Below, piece after piece: positions 28,152-36,232 of a stretch of DNA of 64,000 bases. The translations under genes and the position numbers were made by a program. The DNA is taken from the NCBI GenBank assembly GCA_016932315.1, contig JAFGDD010000002.1, positions 1-64,000 on the forward strand, given 5' to 3'. Each line of letters starts with the position of its first letter. The first letter of the stretch is position 1. The notes under the pieces are model-generated. The model saw only the letters and a program-made list of their open reading frames with translations. It was not told the DNA's origin and made no database searches. This DNA is from Candidatus Woesearchaeota archaeon. Its GTDB lineage: Archaea; Nanobdellota; Nanobdellia; Woesearchaeales; SM23-78.

Positions 28152-28946
28152 TCATCCTCCAATCTTAGCTTTGAATCCAGAGTCTTCAAAATATTTTTTT
28201 ATCTCTTCAATTCTTTCTTTAGAAGGAGATTCCATTCCTTTGAGGCGATATTCTAATCCAAGCCTTGCATACTTGGCTTCTGCAAAGTTGTGGTAAGGAA
28301 GCAAATCTATTTCAGCTATCCCTTCGAGAGAGAGCATTAATTCCTTGATTTGCCTGATATTATGCTCTGTGTCAGTGATGCTAGGTATGACTGGGAACCT
28401 TATGATTATTTTGCTCTTGTCTTCAAAGCTTCTCAGGTTCGTAAGTATCATGTCATTAGGTATCCCTGCGTATTGCTTATGCTCTTCACAATTCATGAGC
28501 TTCAAGTCATAAAGCACAATATCAAACTTGCTGGCTATTCTGTTGAAAGTTTCAGTATCAGCATAGCCTGTAGTGTCAAGCGTTAGGTGGTACTGATGTC
28601 TTTCGTCCTTGCACTTATTAACCAGCTCATCAAGGAACTCTGGCTGCAACAATGGCTCTCCCCCAGAAAGGGTTATCCCGCCGCCAGATTGCTCATAGAA
28701 TATTCTGTCTTTCTCAAGCTCTGCAACGAGCTCATCAACGCTGACAACTCTCTCAATGCCAAGAATGTTTTTTTCATTATCTTTATTTTGCTCATTTAAT
28801 TTATTGTTTTCTGGCGTAAAAAACGATTCAGGATTATGGCACCACCAGCACTTTGCAGCGCAGCCCTTGAAGAATATGGTTGTCCTTATGCCGGGGCCGT
28901 CATGGATTGAGAAGCGCTGTATCTTGTAGATTGTTCCTTTTGCCAT
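28152..28946 (-). CDS. pflA: Glycyl-radical enzyme activase (PflA type radical SAM)
   Basis: 264 residues. Begins with IQRFSIHDGPGIRTTIFFKG and the cluster motif CAAKCWWCHNPE (CX3CX2C), then GGGITLSGGEPLLQ (about 90). This is the classic activating enzyme that puts a glycyl radical on pyruvate formate-lyase or relatives. No glycyl-radical enzyme is in the window, so its partner lies elsewhere. ATG 28946 is preferred; the longer frame starts at 28964. Confidence 0.92.
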   Translation of the reverse strand: MAKGTIYKIQRFSIHDGPGIRTTIFFKGCAAKCWWCHNPESFFTPENNKLNEQNKDNEKNILGIERVVSVDELVAELEKDRIFYEQSGGGITLSGGEPLLQPEFLDELVNKCKDERHQYHLTLDTTGYADTETFNRIASKFDIVLYDLKLMNCEEHKQYAGIPNDMILTNLRSFEDKSKIIIRFPVIPSITDTEHNIRQIKELMLSLEGIAEIDLLPYHNFAEAKYARLGLEYRLKGMESPSKERIEEIKKYFEDSGFKAKIGG

Positions 28947-29039
28947 CTTGTTCAAGTTCTGCAAAAATCTTGTTTTTAATAAAAAATTTCCGATTTTTCA
29001 TGATAGCATTATATAAAATACCCTTTCAAGAAAATTTTC

Positions 29040-30239
29040 ATGCTCATAGAAATAGCAGTAGCTGTATTACTAGGCATATTCATAGGCATCTTCACGGGCA
29101 TCACTCCAGGCATTCACGTGAACCTCGTAGCAGCTACTCTTCTAGCATTCTCTCCAATCTTGCTCAAACAATTTGCTCCTCTTACACTTGCTGTTTTTAT
29201 CATGGCGCTGGCAGTAACCCATTCATTTCTTGACACTATTCCTTCAATTTATCTAGGAGCTCCTGATGATGAGAATGCATTGTCTGTGCTTCCAGGTCAA
29301 AGAATGCTACTAAGAGGAGAAGGCTACCAGGCAGTAAAGATAACCATCCTGGGAACATATACGGGCCTTGTCACTGCAATCTGCTTCATCCCTGTTTTCA
29401 TCCTTATAGCTAACAAGCTTTACCCAATACTAAAGCCTTACCTTGTTTATGCATTAATCCTAATTATTATTTTCATGATATTCAGGGAAAAGAATTGGTT
29501 GTGGAGCTTTATCTTGTTTTCAATATCAGGTACGCTTGGGGTTCTGGTATTCTCAATCCCTAACATGAAAGAACCAATGTTCCCGTTATTATCAGGATTA
29601 TTCGGAGTGTCAGGGTTATTAATAAGTTTTTTTGAAAACACAAAAATTCCTGCACAAAAAATAACCAAGGACATAGAGTTCAAACTAAAAGAGCTCCTGA
29701 AAGTTTTATCAGCCAGCTCAATAGCAGTATTTTTCATCCAGTTCTTTCCAGGAATGGGCCCAAGCCAAGGAGCCGTAATCTCAAGCCAGCTCATACGCAA
29801 TATCAAAGACAAAGGCTATCTTTGCCTTGTAGGAGCAATGGGAACCATGAGCGTTGTGTTCTCGCTCGTAACATTCTACACATTGAATAAAGCCAAGGAC
29901 GGCTCAATAGTTGTGATGTCAAAGCTCACACAAATAAATTTCAACTCATTCATGATAATAGTTCTTACGTTTCTCACAGCAGGCTCTGTTGCAGTCTTCC
30001 TAACGCTCTGGTTTGCAAAACAATTCTCAAGGATAATAATAAAAATAAACTACAAGCTTCTGGTAATATCAATCATAGCCTTTGTTACAGGCATGGCAAT
30101 CTTCCTCGACAAATGGACAGGACTTCTAGTGCTGGTAACAGCAGCAGCTGTCGGATTAATAGCGCCGCTAAAGAACATCGGAAGAAACCACGCAATGGGA
30201 TGCCTTCTGCTCCCTGTATTAGTTTATCTTGTCCTCTAA
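29040..30239 (+). CDS. TctA-like membrane protein (COG1784)
   Basis: 399 residues with about ten membrane segments. The N-terminal GIFTGITPGIHVNL and the mirrored FFPGMGPSQGAVIS (about 240) are the duplicated signatures of the TctA/DUF112 superfamily, here the archaeal COG1784 branch. Family relatives are the large permease of tripartite tricarboxylate transporters; TctB and TctC partners are not seen, so the substrate is open. It overlaps speD at the 3' ends by 21 bases (opposite strands). Confidence 0.85.
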   Translation: MLIEIAVAVLLGIFIGIFTGITPGIHVNLVAATLLAFSPILLKQFAPLTLAVFIMALAVTHSFLDTIPSIYLGAPDDENALSVLPGQRMLLRGEGYQAVKITILGTYTGLVTAICFIPVFILIANKLYPILKPYLVYALILIIIFMIFREKNWLWSFILFSISGTLGVLVFSIPNMKEPMFPLLSGLFGVSGLLISFFENTKIPAQKITKDIEFKLKELLKVLSASSIAVFFIQFFPGMGPSQGAVISSQLIRNIKDKGYLCLVGAMGTMSVVFSLVTFYTLNKAKDGSIVVMSKLTQINFNSFMIIVLTFLTAGSVAVFLTLWFAKQFSRIIIKINYKLLVISIIAFVTGMAIFLDKWTGLLVLVTAAAVGLIAPLKNIGRNHAMGCLLLPVLVYLVL

Positions 30240-30617
30240 TAATCCGTTTTCGCCGCTTTTATAAGCTTCCTGTACAAGGCCGCGCTCAAGTTGCTTTACA
30301 TTAATGTTGCTTGAGCCGAAAGATTTTTTCATGTAATCAATAGCAGCCTCCTCGTTCATAGTCTCACTGCAGGTGAAGATGTCAACAGCGCAGTAGTTGT
30401 GCTCAGGCCAAGTGTGGATTGAGAAATGTGATTCTGAAATTATTATCATGCCGCTCACGCCGTAAGGAGAAAAGTTGTGGAAGTCATACATCACAATATG
30501 GGCTTTTGCAATCTTCGCAGCTTCGAGAAGAATAGATTCGACACTATCACGATGAGAAATACGATTCGGGTCGCACCCGTAATACTCCACTATGTAATGC
30601 TTTCCAAGTGCATTCAT
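30219..30617 (-). CDS. speD: S-adenosylmethionine decarboxylase proenzyme
   Basis: 132 residues, class 1B small form. ISESHFSIHTWPEHNYCAVDIFTC contains the self-processing Ser (ESHFS) that becomes the pyruvoyl group, and the later catalytic Cys. It makes decarboxylated SAM for polyamine synthesis. Its end runs 21 bases into the end of the opposite-strand transporter gene. No spermidine synthase nearby. Confidence 0.94.
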   Translation of the reverse strand: MNALGKHYIVEYYGCDPNRISHRDSVESILLEAAKIAKAHIVMYDFHNFSPYGVSGMIIISESHFSIHTWPEHNYCAVDIFTCSETMNEEAAIDYMKKSFGSSNINVKQLERGLVQEAYKSGENGLLEDKIN

Positions 30618-30770
30618 CTTTGACTATTTTTTTTCGCCAGAAGCTAATAAAAATCCTCCTCGCTCTTTTTGTATATTTTATTATCGTCTATAAGGCATTG
30701 CAGAGGTTCTATTTTTAAATTTAATTGTTTTTGCAAAACATTTAAATCAAAACCCTTTTTCTTAAGCCCT

Positions 30771-31181
30771 ATGAAAAGAGTTTTAGTCTTCGGAACATTC
30801 GACATATTTCATCTTGGCCACGAGTATTTTCTAAAAGAGGCAAAGAAACATGGTGATGAGCTTGTCGTGGTGGTTGCTAGGGATTCAACAGTCCAGCAGG
30901 TGAAAGGCAGTCTGCCGCATCACAATGAGGATTATCGCTTGAACATCATCCAGAAGCTTGACTATGTTGACAAGGCAATACTCGGTCATGAAACAGCAGA
31001 CAAATACAAAATAATTGATGAGATAAAGCCAGATACAATATGCCTTGGCTATGACCAGACGCATTTTGTTGATGGGCTGGAGAAAAAGCTCAGAGAACTT
31101 GAGCTAAGAACAGAAATAATCCGCCTGGAACCTTACAAACCCCACCTATACAAGAGCTCACACTACAAAAAAACGCAGTAG
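30771..31181 (+). CDS. ribL: Cytidylyltransferase-like protein, probably FAD synthase RibL
   Basis: 136 residues. RVLVFGTFDIFHLGHEYFL carries the HxGH nucleotidyltransferase motif; the C-terminal part has TICLGYDQTHF. This short archaeal form matches RibL, which adenylylates FMN to FAD, more than bacterial TagD, but the substrate choice is inference. ATG 30771 has CATTTAAATC about 27 bases before it; the open frame to 30669 is not supported. Confidence 0.8.
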   Translation: MKRVLVFGTFDIFHLGHEYFLKEAKKHGDELVVVVARDSTVQQVKGSLPHHNEDYRLNIIQKLDYVDKAILGHETADKYKIIDEIKPDTICLGYDQTHFVDGLEKKLRELELRTEIIRLEPYKPHLYKSSHYKKTQ

Positions 31182-31354
31182 AAAGTCCTACTTTGTTCAA
31201 TTGGTTTTTAACCTCTTTTTTTCATGTTCTCTAAAATATCGCACTGAACTTCCAGGCTTATTGCACCTCGTGTTATCACAGGCGGCCTTTATTGTCATCT
31301 TATTCTTCTGTTTGCTTCTTGGAGTGTGGTGTATGTTGTAAGCTTATGGATATT

Positions 31355-32509
31355 CTATTCTCTTCTCGGCAATGTGAATTTGGTTAAGTCCAGATGGTCT
31401 TGTTGTGAATAACAGATATTTTCTCCCTGGCAAATTGGATGATAAAATGTGTTCTTGAATAGTTGAGCAGTATCCCAGTATTCTCTTACCTTTCCAATGT
31501 ATTCTTTATTTACTGTATCAAAATGAGATAGATATTCCATTAAATCTTCCCACACTATAAATCTTTTTTTACGTTCCTGAAAATAAGTACAAAAGTCAGC
31601 TATTATCGGCAATTTGAAACGATATATCCCTTCATGACCATTTCCTTTACTAAATACAGGAATTTGTTCAGAGAAAAATTCTAAGCCCGCATCTTCGCAA
31701 ATAGATCTAGCTTTTTCATGTTCTTCAATCAATAATGATTCAGAAACTTGATAGAATCCGCAGTTTTCAATATCCCAATATGACTTCATTAGGTTCTTTT
31801 CAACTAATGGGTTAATTGCCTTCAATGCTTGAAGTAGTTTTGATTCTATACTGCTAGTTATTCCCAATAAACTAAAATAAACTCGTTTAGCCCCCGCATT
31901 TTGAAAGTGTCTTAACAATGAGCCTAATTGCTTCTCATCATTTAATCCGGCGATATGAGGAGTTAGATGAAATGAAGCAGGAATACCTCTTCTTGCTAAT
32001 TCTCTTACAACATGAAGCCTTTGTTCTGCTGTCGGGGACCTTCTTTCGAGATGATATCTGACTCCTTCATCTAAACTAATCAGCGTAGATACAACTTCAA
32101 CAAGACCTTTATTCCCCATTTCTTCTAATATGTCTGCATCCCGTAAAACTCCTTGCATTCTGGTAAATAACAATACTGGAAAATTACATGAATTAAATAC
32201 CTTTAGAATATTACGAGTTACTTCTAATCTTCTCTCGAGAGGTTGATAACTATCACAAGAATGACCTATAGAAGTTATAAATCTGTGATCTGATTGCATA
32301 AGGAACTCCCGCAGTTCTTCCATATCTCTATGAGAAACAGATGGTTTTTTCTGTTGGTTAGTCTCTTGGTTATACATGCAATATGTGCACCCTTGGCTAC
32401 ATCCATTATAGGGTTCTAAAGTAAATGTTGTTGGATGTGCTCTTAGATTAGCTAGAGAAGCATGAAATCTTTCCAAAGGATGACCGTATGAATTTTCTAT
32501 TGAAGTCAT
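31355..32509 (-). CDS. Radical SAM protein, SplB-like, operon gene 4
   Basis: 384 residues. The cluster motif CSQGCTYCMY (CX3CX2C, about 41-50) is followed by a TIM-barrel-like body with HSCDSYQPLE and a C-terminal CQGENICYSQ. It looks like COG1533, the family of spore photoproduct lyase and related enzymes. It lies last in the operon, 1 base after the unknown gene, with GGGAG upstream. The substrate is unknown; the neighbours suggest a shared modification pathway. Confidence 0.75.
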   Translation of the reverse strand: MTSIENSYGHPLERFHASLANLRAHPTTFTLEPYNGCSQGCTYCMYNQETNQQKKPSVSHRDMEELREFLMQSDHRFITSIGHSCDSYQPLERRLEVTRNILKVFNSCNFPVLLFTRMQGVLRDADILEEMGNKGLVEVVSTLISLDEGVRYHLERRSPTAEQRLHVVRELARRGIPASFHLTPHIAGLNDEKQLGSLLRHFQNAGAKRVYFSLLGITSSIESKLLQALKAINPLVEKNLMKSYWDIENCGFYQVSESLLIEEHEKARSICEDAGLEFFSEQIPVFSKGNGHEGIYRFKLPIIADFCTYFQERKKRFIVWEDLMEYLSHFDTVNKEYIGKVREYWDTAQLFKNTFYHPICQGENICYSQQDHLDLTKFTLPRRE

Positions 32510-32510
32510 G

Positions 32511-33014
32511 CTATTCTCCCAGATAGACTCTTCCTAGATTTACTTTTCTCGATCTTTCAATTCTAGCTATTTCTTCAGGATACAATTCGTCTTTAATATC
32601 TGCATCTCGGCTCAAAAATTGAATGATCCCTCTCAGCGGTATCTTAGATAAAACATTTGGTTCGCATAGTTTTAAAACATATTCGCATATACTTAAATTA
32701 CCTATCATTCTATCATTTATCGCTCCACCAACTAAGATTTTTGCACTGTCAGGGTCATATTGAAAATCCCATCTTCGTAATCCTCTATAATTCCCTCTAA
32801 CTGGTCCTAGGAAGGGTCTTTGATATTGACTGTTCGGTCTATATAGTCCTAAAAAAGGCAGATCAAAATCAGCAGCTCCCGCTTCCCGTATTCTCTTAAT
32901 AAAATTTCTTCTTCCTTCTAAATTAACCAAATATATTTTATCTTCAAACATTCCTGTATCACAAGGATGTATTTTTGTATTAATTAACCAAATCTTCCTC
33001 ATTGTTAATCTCAT
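32511..33014 (-). CDS. Unknown protein of radical-SAM operon, gene 3
   Basis: 167 residues; no family recognised. It begins MRLTMRKIWLINTKIHPC and has an Arg-rich middle with DLPFLGLYRPN and GNYRGLRRWDF, then CEYVLKLCEP. No membrane or signal segment. The start ATG overlaps the stop of the preceding gene (TGATG), the usual sign of coupled translation; a second ATG follows at 33002. Small size and position make it a candidate substrate carrier or accessory subunit, but this is guesswork. Confidence 0.65.
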   Translation of the reverse strand: MRLTMRKIWLINTKIHPCDTGMFEDKIYLVNLEGRRNFIKRIREAGAADFDLPFLGLYRPNSQYQRPFLGPVRGNYRGLRRWDFQYDPDSAKILVGGAINDRMIGNLSICEYVLKLCEPNVLSKIPLRGIIQFLSRDADIKDELYPEEIARIERSRKVNLGRVYLGE

Positions 33015-34408
33015 CAGACCAATTTTGTTATTTCTTGGATTAGACCATCATAAGCAGGTTTTAATTCTGGAAACCTTATCATCTTTGCCAGAATTCTTGC
33101 TTGATATCTCTTATCTGAATAAAATGTTTTAAATAACTCCTGTCTTGCTCTTAAGAGTGCAGATTCATTTAATCGCCCGCCTAATACATAATGACCGCCC
33201 CCTTCATAATGATCCCAATTATAATCAGCGATTAATCCTTTTCTTTCTTGGCTTCGAAAATAAGCAGTTCCTGGAAATGGGGTTACGAATGATATCCTTA
33301 TTTGATCTAGAGGAATTTTAGTTATGGTATCTTGAAAGGTTATAATATCATCTTGTGATTGATGCGGATAACCAATCATATAGTAACCTCTTGTTATCAT
33401 CCCAGCATCATTTGCAGCTTCTATAGATTTCCCTATCTGCTCTACAGTTATGCCTTTTCCAATCTCAGCCAGAACCCTATCATCCAGACTCTCTATTCCG
33501 AACCCAATTCTTACACACCCAGATTCTCTCATATATTTAAGCATTTCTTCATCATCGGTGACTCTACAAGAGCAAGACCAATTAATCCCAATGTTTCTTC
33601 TTCTAATTTCTTTACATAATTCGATAACTCGTTCTTTATCTTCATTGAATGTTAAATCCGTAAAAAAAATAGCATTTGTCCCAAATCGATTTCTTAAATA
33701 TTCCAATTCGTCCGCTACATTTTCTGCGCTTCTATAATAAACTTGTTTTCCCCACATTTGGGGAGAATTACAAAAAGAACAATTATGTAAACATCCTCTT
33801 GACCATGCAATTTGTGCAAAAGCTCTTTGATTTTCTGGAATTGGAATCATGGGGTTTCCTTGTGAACATTCTTCTAATCCGTATCTATCCGGAAAAGGCA
33901 AATCATCCAAACTTGAAATTCGCGGCGCTCTTTCTGTAAACCTTAACTCTTCATTTTTTTTAAAACCTAAAGAACCAATTTCTTCAAGAGGGGTATTATT
34001 TTCCAGGGCATCGATCAAATTAAAACATGTTTCTTCTCCCTCTCCCATCACAATAAAATCAACACAATCTTCTCCTAATATTTTTGGCACTCCTGTCGGG
34101 TGATATCCCCCAAGGATAATTTTTGTTTTAGGAAACATCTTCTTTATTCTTCTGCTCATATCTAAAGAGTGATTTGCACATGAAGTCATCACAGATAAAC
34201 CAACATAATCCGGGCAAAATCCTTTGATCATCCTTAAAACTTTTTCATCGCTTTCTCTTCTCTGTTGAAATACCTGTGTTTCTAATCCTCTAGACCTTAA
34301 ATAACTTGAAATATAGCCTATGCTTATCGGATCCATTCTGTTTCCGCCCAGTTCAAAGGAACCTTGCCATGATGCCGGATTCAATTCTGCAAGAAATATT
34401 CGTGGCAT
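33014..34408 (-). CDS. B12-binding radical SAM protein, operon gene 2
   Basis: 464 residues. N-terminal cobalamin-binding domain (about 1-150; the B12 loop is not fully classical, but LGGYHPTGVPKILG and DFIVMGEGEE are typical) and a radical SAM domain with CLHNCSFCNSP (about 202), GFGIESLDD and GYYMIGYPHQ. This is the BchE/P-methylase-like class, methyltransferases or ring-forming enzymes. The start is ATG 34408 with GGAGGTAA, 4 bases after the methyltransferase gene. The true reaction is unknown. Confidence 0.85.
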   Translation of the reverse strand: MPRIFLAELNPASWQGSFELGGNRMDPISIGYISSYLRSRGLETQVFQQRRESDEKVLRMIKGFCPDYVGLSVMTSCANHSLDMSRRIKKMFPKTKIILGGYHPTGVPKILGEDCVDFIVMGEGEETCFNLIDALENNTPLEEIGSLGFKKNEELRFTERAPRISSLDDLPFPDRYGLEECSQGNPMIPIPENQRAFAQIAWSRGCLHNCSFCNSPQMWGKQVYYRSAENVADELEYLRNRFGTNAIFFTDLTFNEDKERVIELCKEIRRRNIGINWSCSCRVTDDEEMLKYMRESGCVRIGFGIESLDDRVLAEIGKGITVEQIGKSIEAANDAGMITRGYYMIGYPHQSQDDIITFQDTITKIPLDQIRISFVTPFPGTAYFRSQERKGLIADYNWDHYEGGGHYVLGGRLNESALLRARQELFKTFYSDKRYQARILAKMIRFPELKPAYDGLIQEITKLV

Positions 34409-34412
34409 ATTA

Positions 34413-35075
34413 TTACCTCCTATACCACAATTTAACAATATGATAATTTTTCTTATTAAATATAGAATCAATTAACTCTAAAGACATTTTCCCTATTCTT
34501 AAAAACTCAAAAAATATTTGATAATTTAAAGAATCGGTTATAATCAGAATAATGAACCCTTTCTTAGTTAGGTAATCTCTTGCTTGCTTTAAAAAAAGGC
34601 CTAAATGCTTATTTTCTCTATCCCCGCAGGCAGCTTCAATAATATCCTTTGGTTCTTCGTCATAAAATGGAGGATTCCAAATTATCACATCAAATTTATC
34701 TTTTATATTCTCGAATAAATCACTTTGAAGAACTTTAATCTTGTTCTTAAGACCATGAAGTAATACATTCTTTTCAGCGCACTCAACAGAAGCAGCATTG
34801 ATATCTGCTGCTACAACTTCGGATGCTTTATCTGAAGAAAAAATTGCTTGTATTCCTGAACCAGTGCCCATATCTAAAACCTTACTGTTTTGAGAAATTA
34901 TTTCATTAAGCTTGGAAGCTAAAAATTGTGAATCTTGAAAAATTGGATCAAAACTTCCGGGCAAAACAATAATTTTCTTTCCCAGTACCTCTCTTTCTAT
35001 TGGCTTATCTATTCTTTTCAAATGATTAATCGCATCCCTGTATCCTTCTGCTGATGTTGCTTTGATTTCTTTCAT
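34413..35075 (-). CDS. Class I SAM methyltransferase (NPPF type), operon gene 1
   Basis: 220 residues. SAM-binding VLDMGTGSGIQAI (about 68) and the substrate motif IIWNPPFYDEEP (about 128) place it among N-methyltransferases of the HemK/PrmC/RlmG class. ATG 35075 has GGGGGAG close upstream. First gene of the four-gene radical SAM operon; its promoter (AATTATATATG) leaves a short leader. Its target may be a protein or small molecule handled by the operon. Confidence 0.85.
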   Translation of the reverse strand: MKEIKATSAEGYRDAINHLKRIDKPIEREVLGKKIIVLPGSFDPIFQDSQFLASKLNEIISQNSKVLDMGTGSGIQAIFSSDKASEVVAADINAASVECAEKNVLLHGLKNKIKVLQSDLFENIKDKFDVIIWNPPFYDEEPKDIIEAACGDRENKHLGLFLKQARDYLTKKGFIILIITDSLNYQIFFEFLRIGKMSLELIDSIFNKKNYHIVKLWYRR

Positions 35076-35194
35076 TATTTCTCCCCCATGGCAATTACTA
35101 CACCTAAGTAATAATATCGGCATATATAATTATTTCTACTAAAAATTGGATAAAAACAGCAAAATTTATATATTAATTTATGTCAATATAAAAT

Positions 35195-36184
35195 GTGACT
35201 TATAAATTAGATTTGAAAGAAAAAAGAATGCTGTACGAGCTAGACGTTAACGCGAGGGTTTCAACGACTCGATTAGCTAAGAAAGTCAAGTTAAGCCAAC
35301 CAGCAGCTCATTACCGCCTAAATAATTTAATAAAGAAGGGTATAATAAAATTCTTTCTAACCAATATTGATTACGGGTTCTTCGGGTATTTTCCGTATAG
35401 ATTCTTTACAAGGCTTCAAAACCTAACTGAAAAAAAAGAGGAAGAGCTAATTGATTATCTAAAAAATCATGAATTCGTTCCTTTTTTAGCCTCCTGCACC
35501 GGCAGATACGATTTAATGTTCTGTATTATGGCGAAAAATATGTCTGAATTAAAGAAAACAATAAATGAAGTAAAAAATAAATATGGAGAATTTTTTTCAG
35601 AACAACAAATAGCCACTATAATAACCGGCGACTTTTACCCGAGGGATTATCTCTTATCTAAAGAAAAAAGAATTTCCTTTTCTGAAAAAGAGTTCGGAGA
35701 GCAGGCAGCAAGACCCAGACTAGATAAAAAGGATTTAATAATTTTGAAAGAAATATCAAATAATTGCAGAATCTCGAGTTTGGAGCTTGCTGAAAAAATT
35801 AAGCTTTCACTTGATGCAGTAAGATACAGGATAAAAAATCTTGAGAAAAGCAAGATAATCAACGGCTATACTATTTACCTGGACAACAAGATGCTCAACC
35901 AATTCAGGTACAAAATAATGGTTCAAATAAATGGCTCTAATGAGGAAAAAGAAAACCAAATAATAAATTTTGCAAAGCAATTCTCAAATGTAGTCTACTC
36001 AGTAAAAACCTTTGGCATTTGGGACTTGGAAATCGATATTGAAGTTGATAACCCTGAAAAATTTAATGATATTCTGAGAAAAATAAAAAACATTCAACCA
36101 GGATTAATAACAGAATACCAAACGATTCAATTGACCGGTGTTCACAAATACACTCATCTACCGATGAGTTTTGACATGGCTTAA
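35195..36184 (+). CDS. Lrp/AsnC-like regulator with two HTH modules
   Basis: 329 residues. Two tandem units: HTH 1 (about 5-55; TTRLAKKVKLSQPAAHYRLN) with an alpha+beta domain to about 150, and HTH 2 (about 175-225; LAEKIKLSLDAVRYRIKN) with a second such domain. The start GTG 35195 follows TATA-like ATTTATATATT by about 27 bases, so leaderless. Divergent from the radical SAM operon across about 120 bases; it probably controls it. Confidence 0.85.
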   Translation: MTYKLDLKEKRMLYELDVNARVSTTRLAKKVKLSQPAAHYRLNNLIKKGIIKFFLTNIDYGFFGYFPYRFFTRLQNLTEKKEEELIDYLKNHEFVPFLASCTGRYDLMFCIMAKNMSELKKTINEVKNKYGEFFSEQQIATIITGDFYPRDYLLSKEKRISFSEKEFGEQAARPRLDKKDLIILKEISNNCRISSLELAEKIKLSLDAVRYRIKNLEKSKIINGYTIYLDNKMLNQFRYKIMVQINGSNEEKENQIINFAKQFSNVVYSVKTFGIWDLEIDIEVDNPEKFNDILRKIKNIQPGLITEYQTIQLTGVHKYTHLPMSFDMA

Positions 36185-36232
36185 CTTGGCAAAAGCAAAA
36201 AGATTAAAAACAGCAGAGAAGTATCCTGCTTT

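Follow-up and report, generated by a model that had tools for sequence, protein, structure and literature searches.

A low-GC3 radical SAM operon with a divergent two-module Lrp regulator: a possible laterally acquired tailoring pathway in a woesearchaeal genome

What does a tight cluster of two radical SAM enzymes, a methyltransferase and an orphan protein do in an archaeon with a genome of 1.34 Mb, from a lineage generally portrayed as metabolically poor, and how did it come to be there? The cluster is a four-gene minus-strand operon facing a divergent Lrp gene, and all five genes are present in the 64,000-nucleotide stretch of woesearchaeal DNA analysed here (hereafter the window; Table 1). 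We put at about even odds (roughly 50%) the reading that this is a laterally acquired tailoring operon, forming a single transcription unit under the control of a divergent two-module Lrp regulator that came along with it.

The open reading frames place the operon at 31355-35123 on the minus strand, with its genes translationally coupled. The first-pass annotation had described gaps and overlaps of a few bases between the four genes, and this arrangement was recovered, with two starts corrected. Judging from the upstream sequence, translation of the B12-binding radical SAM enzyme (the B12 enzyme) most likely begins at the ATG that follows a perfect Shine-Dalgarno site, AGGAGGTAATAATATG, leaving a 4-nt gap to the methyltransferase gene rather than an overlap, and that of the methyltransferase most likely at the ATG that follows GGGGGAG. 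The corrected starts tighten the operon, in which the gene for the 167-residue orphan (U167) and the B12 enzyme gene share 1 base (TGATG), and 1 base separates the U167 stop from the start of the SplB-like gene. A sigma-70 promoter scan, using a model unsuited to archaea, gave no excess over shuffled sequences. A 17-nt near-repeat, AAAAATTGGATMAAAAC, is found with one mismatch inside the methyltransferase gene (34938-34954) and in the intergenic region (35141-35157), 203 bp apart; it could represent paired operators or chance.

Table 1 Positions in the window of the operon genes, the divergent regulator and the insertion that holds them
Feature	Position	Strand	Basis
SplB-like radical SAM enzyme, 384 aa	31355..32509	-	PF04055, PA0069 family, AlphaFold model, Terriglobia (L084) relative
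U167, orphan 167-aa protein	32511..33014	-	Coupled on both sides; searches without match
B12-binding radical SAM enzyme, 464 aa from ATG 34408 (most likely start)	33014..34408	-	ORF open to 34471; PF02310 + PF04055
MTS-fold methyltransferase with NPPF, 220 aa from ATG 35075 (most likely start)	34413..35075	-	ORF open to 35123; PF05175
Divergent intergenic region, 119 bp	35076..35194	.	Holds the 19-nt element ATAAAAACAGCAAAATTTA at 35151-35169
Two-module Lrp/AsnC regulator, 329 aa	35195..36184	+	Two HTH_AsnC and two RAM stretches
Insertion, approximate extent, cytidylyltransferase to TyrRS	31182..36232	.	The two flanking genes are adjacent in congeners

The block had been noted as more A/T-rich than its flanks, with a hint of transfer, and both points were strengthened by our analysis. 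The 1-kb windows across 31001-36000 have a GC content of 31.6-35.5%, versus about 37-47% elsewhere in the window, and the GC3 of the operon genes is 0.22-0.245, versus 0.46 ± 0.05 for the 55 other window genes (z about -4.0 to -4.5). When 141 genes drawn from six stretches of the genome are ordered by lowest GC3, they take ranks 1, 3, 4 and 5. Two congeners show an empty site: the cytidylyltransferase gene is followed by the TyrRS gene, with the block absent, after 14 bp in G371 (locus L048) and after about 30 bp in G280 (locus L027), while 5.05 kb lie between the cytidylyltransferase gene (30669-31181) and the TyrRS gene (from 36233) in the window. The window's TyrRS is 79% identical to that of G371 and about 34-36% identical to that of G280, which may, from its divergence, be a replaced copy. 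No terminal repeats, integrase or transposase were found at the insertion. Lateral acquisition of the operon is well supported by the empty site in two congeners, by GC3 and by the lack of relatives of the operon within the genus. Immediately to the left of the insertion are a pyruvate-formate-lyase-activase-like radical SAM gene (28152-28964) and an AdoMet decarboxylase gene (30219-30617), neither of them low in GC3. We rejected a defence system, for which PADLOC gave only generic methyltransferase matches and a weak radical SAM one, and also a viral, phage or plasmid origin, as those sets held no relative of U167.

The NPPF methyltransferase and B12-binding radical SAM enzyme named in the first-pass annotation were both confirmed by Pfam. 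The B12 enzyme carries a B12-binding domain (PF02310, 64.4 bits versus a cut-off of 32.1) and a radical SAM domain (PF04055, 95.2 bits versus 29.5), which places it in the B12-binding radical SAM superfamily. It is similar over nearly its whole length to the HpnJ/BchE class, in which a Rossmann-type B12-binding domain precedes the radical SAM core, but it falls below the NCBIfam cut-offs of both the hopanoid enzyme HpnJ (TIGR03471; 179.9 bits versus 577.6) and BchE (TIGR02026; 163.7 bits versus 481), and its operon has no hopanoid or bacteriochlorophyll gene. The nearest PDB sequences are AprD4 and an unnamed radical SAM protein (9ccb), with TokK and OxsB weaker. Published reactions of B12 radical SAM enzymes include methylation, ring formation, ring contraction and thioether formation (PMC13331322). 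Enzymes of this class, at ~30-35% identity, occur in 105 of 279 genomes of the phylum, so that what sets this gene apart is its neighbours rather than the gene itself. The host genome also encodes a BtuR-type corrinoid adenosyltransferase, its gene adjoining one for a class-II-type ribonucleotide reductase, which makes cobalamin use plausible. The methyltransferase has an MTS domain (PF05175, 77 bits) with the NPPF motif, and its relatives in the PDB are of the HemK/PrmC, RsmC, MJ0882 and GenN types. As a PrmC/HemK protein glutamine methyltransferase it was rejected (69.6 bits versus the NCBIfam cut-off of 199), and its PrmC/RsmC/GenN-type kinship is too generic for naming a substrate.

The last enzyme of the operon had been called SplB-like. 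As a statement about the predicted fold this probably stands: the best PDB matches of its AlphaFold model (mean pLDDT 65, weak at the C terminus) are spore photoproduct lyases (TM 0.51-0.58), with SuiB, SkfB and Mmp10 among the further matches; as a spore photoproduct lyase it fails, with 12.2 bits versus the cut-off of 400 for that family (NCBIfam TIGR04070). The protein has a radical SAM domain (PF04055, 50 bits), cysteines in the arrangement C37-x3-C41-x2-C44 and a C-terminal extension from about residue 245. It shares the radical SAM core, the positions of the cluster cysteines and a D-x-Y-Q-P motif with the PA0069/Rv2578c family, but its score of 131 bits versus a cut-off of 360 comes from residues 30-234, the core only, and its extra ~140 C-terminal residues are common only to one protein from a Terriglobia MAG. 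A place as radical SAM mobile pair protein B was likewise rejected (TIGR04470; 50.6 bits versus 410): in both cases two radical SAM genes, one of them SplB-like, form a pair that looks mobile, but here the partner is a B12 enzyme and a methyltransferase and U167 are added.

We searched widely for relatives of this enzyme. The pattern EPYxGCxxxCxYC, scanned across 84,980 species, returned 15 stretches, one of which, in the Terriglobia MAG (L084:3884-5026), encodes the only full-length relative found (29% over 375 aa, C-terminal region included); a pattern search steered by a designed degenerate alignment gave no result. The SplB-like profile matched nothing in the six remaining genus members, searches of 320 other genomes of the window's order matched radical SAM cores only, viral matches were PA0069-type or generic cores, and of 395 other genomes of the Terriglobia relative's phylum a single one scored, by its core alone. 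The Terriglobia gene immediately follows one that, as read by eye, probably encodes a CDP-alcohol phosphatidyltransferase, with a TolC-like gene also adjoining; the former neighbour is a weak hint at a lipid substrate.

The fold matches to spore photoproduct lyases, together with RsmC among the PDB matches of the methyltransferase and a weak match to the PHROG 'DNA repair photolyase', could be taken to mean that the operon serves nucleic-acid modification or repair, with the SplB-like enzyme acting on DNA or RNA as a spore photoproduct lyase, the methyltransferase modifying a base and the B12 enzyme adding a carbon-bound methyl group to RNA. The NPPF motif would fit as well, as it also occurs in RsmC-type RNA methyltransferases. 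Nonetheless, this is unlikely: the window protein and its Terriglobia relative (26 bits) both score far under the lyase cut-off, no BchE/HpnJ-type enzyme is known to act on RNA, and Pfam detected no RNA-binding domain in any of the four proteins.

U167, already set down as unknown in the first-pass annotation, matched nothing in Pfam, NCBIfam, PHROGs, PADLOC, the PDB, plasmids, phages or viral contigs, nor did an 8-mer scan of 84,980 species find a relative, at a limited sensitivity and with records near the window's own possibly missing from the scan. Its single-sequence structure model (pLDDT 31) is meaningless. We take it for a real gene because it has the same extreme GC3 value as its operon neighbours and its start is coupled to theirs. 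Its position between two radical SAM genes, and the presence of SuiB, SkfB and Mmp10 among the fold matches above, would suit a RiPP-like peptide maturation in which both radical SAM enzymes act on U167 or on the product of a small unannotated ORF. Such a role seems quite improbable, given that the 167 residues are a mixed sequence with no evident leader and core or repeats, that Pfam detected no SPASM domain in either radical SAM enzyme, and that no RRE or precursor family was found with Pfam and NCBIfam.

The first-pass annotation saw a complete small pathway in these genes and made that reading depend on their recurring together in other genomes. We found no such co-occurrence: among the genomes searched, at limited sensitivity, no second one had the complete set, U167 was found in 0 of 370 and the SplB-like protein (E<=1e-20) in 0 of 278 other genomes of the phylum, and the 8-mer scan added none. 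The 14-kb neighbourhood of the Terriglobia relative has none of the other three operon genes, and its genome has no match to U167. The gene set was thus seen once, a complete pathway is not borne out, and functional linkage rests on one operon. The first-pass annotation recognised no known pathway with this set, and we found none either; literature searches on PA0069 together with radical SAM, on Lrp or B12-binding radical SAM in Woesearchaeota, and on the radical SAM mobile pair came up empty. An absence of co-occurrence is also what one would expect of four accessory genes with no relation to each other that happened to accumulate in an AT-rich island, co-transcribed and with no common substrate, but the start/stop coupling at three junctions and the one common GC3 value argue against this, and we hold it to be rather doubtful.

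For the tailoring operon, the following scheme can be proposed. The B12 enzyme, with its MetH-type Rossmann domain and radical SAM core, would methylate an unactivated carbon, a BchE-like ring closure being less likely; the SplB-like enzyme would perform another radical reaction on the same scaffold; the methyltransferase would methylate an N or O atom; and U167 may bind, present or further process the substrate. A small molecule or a lipid intermediate is the most likely substrate, although no sequence feature firmly favours a small molecule over RNA or a peptide. The four genes would be co-regulated by the Lrp protein.

This regulator has the two-module form and divergent position described before, the gap being 119 bp rather than 120. 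Pfam detects both the AsnC-type HTH and the RAM domain twice, which places it in the Lrp/AsnC family. Like the archaeal regulators LrpA, LysM and PH1519 it combines an HTH with a RAM module, but it has two complete modules per chain, is multicopy and is, in this order, often divergent from radical SAM genes. A siroheme/heme d1 pathway, with the protein as an AhbA/AhbB siroheme decarboxylase, was rejected (NF040708; 20.5 bits versus 140), and the operon has no AhbC or AhbD.

An 84% identical copy of the regulator occurs in the same genome (G000:C14:275108-276085). The DNA similarity between the two sites, 78% across window positions 35124 to 36167, covers the gene and its divergent upstream region and ends at both sides. 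Among 177 loci, the exact 19-nt element in this region is found at these two sites only. At this second locus (G000:C14:275108-276977; L034, L041) the regulator copy diverges from a gene for a 260-aa orphan with a GC3 of 0.245, which is absent from 18 relatives, including six congeners, has no Pfam, NCBIfam or plasmid match and has no similarity to U167. Two more low-GC3 genes lie near this site (L041:1-2719), the first NodU-type carbamoyltransferase-like by eye. In G372 the syntenic neighbourhood is intact (NrdR, ribonucleotide reductase, BtuR, three to four small genes, a CofD-like gene, HAD and GlmS) and has neither the Lrp gene nor the 260-aa orphan; the host genome therefore has two insertion-type loci with the regulator in common but not the cargo. 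That one regulator accompanies two unrelated acquired cargos in the same genome is new here. In the window, the regulator may have come in together with the operon and not have been copied there at a later time.

Are such regulators associated with radical SAM genes more generally? The seven genus members hold 33 related Lrp genes, mostly two-module, 8 of them in the host genome, where two of these loci contain 4 of the 15 radical SAM domains over cut-off. At six of the 33 loci (the window, L102, L105, L109, L112 and L124) the divergent unit has one or two radical SAM genes; these do not count as six independent cases, since L105 and L109 are apparent orthologues and the L124 regulator has a single module. 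In L105 and L109, from two congeners, the unit divergent from a two-module Lrp gene contains an HD-domain-like gene and, behind it, two radical SAM/SPASM genes. We also compared the 11 closest Lrp relatives from outside the genus (34-42% identity). Six of these, from other families of the order (L129, L131, L132, L133, L135 and L138), diverge from a conserved ~335-aa protein with radical-SAM-like features by alignment (Pfam support is weak, 17 bits in one member), unusual C-x(n)-C-x2-C cysteines and a SPASM-like C terminus, perhaps, by these sequence features, an unrecognised radical SAM family. In another (L136) the divergent gene is plainly a radical SAM gene, and in two more it is Asn-synthase-like, by Pfam in L130 and by sequence resemblance only in L134. 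The frequent divergence of two-module Lrp genes from radical SAM genes, or genes resembling them, in the window's order is a suggestive association. A bolder reading, which we offer tentatively and regard as somewhat unlikely, is that two-module Lrps are portable control heads, the regulator and its divergent promoter having entered this genome twice with unrelated low-GC3 cargo while its relatives diverge from radical SAM enzymes, and that the operon encodes a novel radical SAM pathway in which U167 represents a new protein family.

If the operon does form a pathway, it would add an uncharacterised combination of B12 and radical SAM enzymes, together with an orphan protein, to a lineage usually called metabolically poor, and would mean that archaea of this kind acquire complete enzyme operons, regulators included. 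If, moreover, this regulator family travels with its cargo, acquired metabolic islands might be found by searching for two-module Lrp genes and reading the divergent unit.
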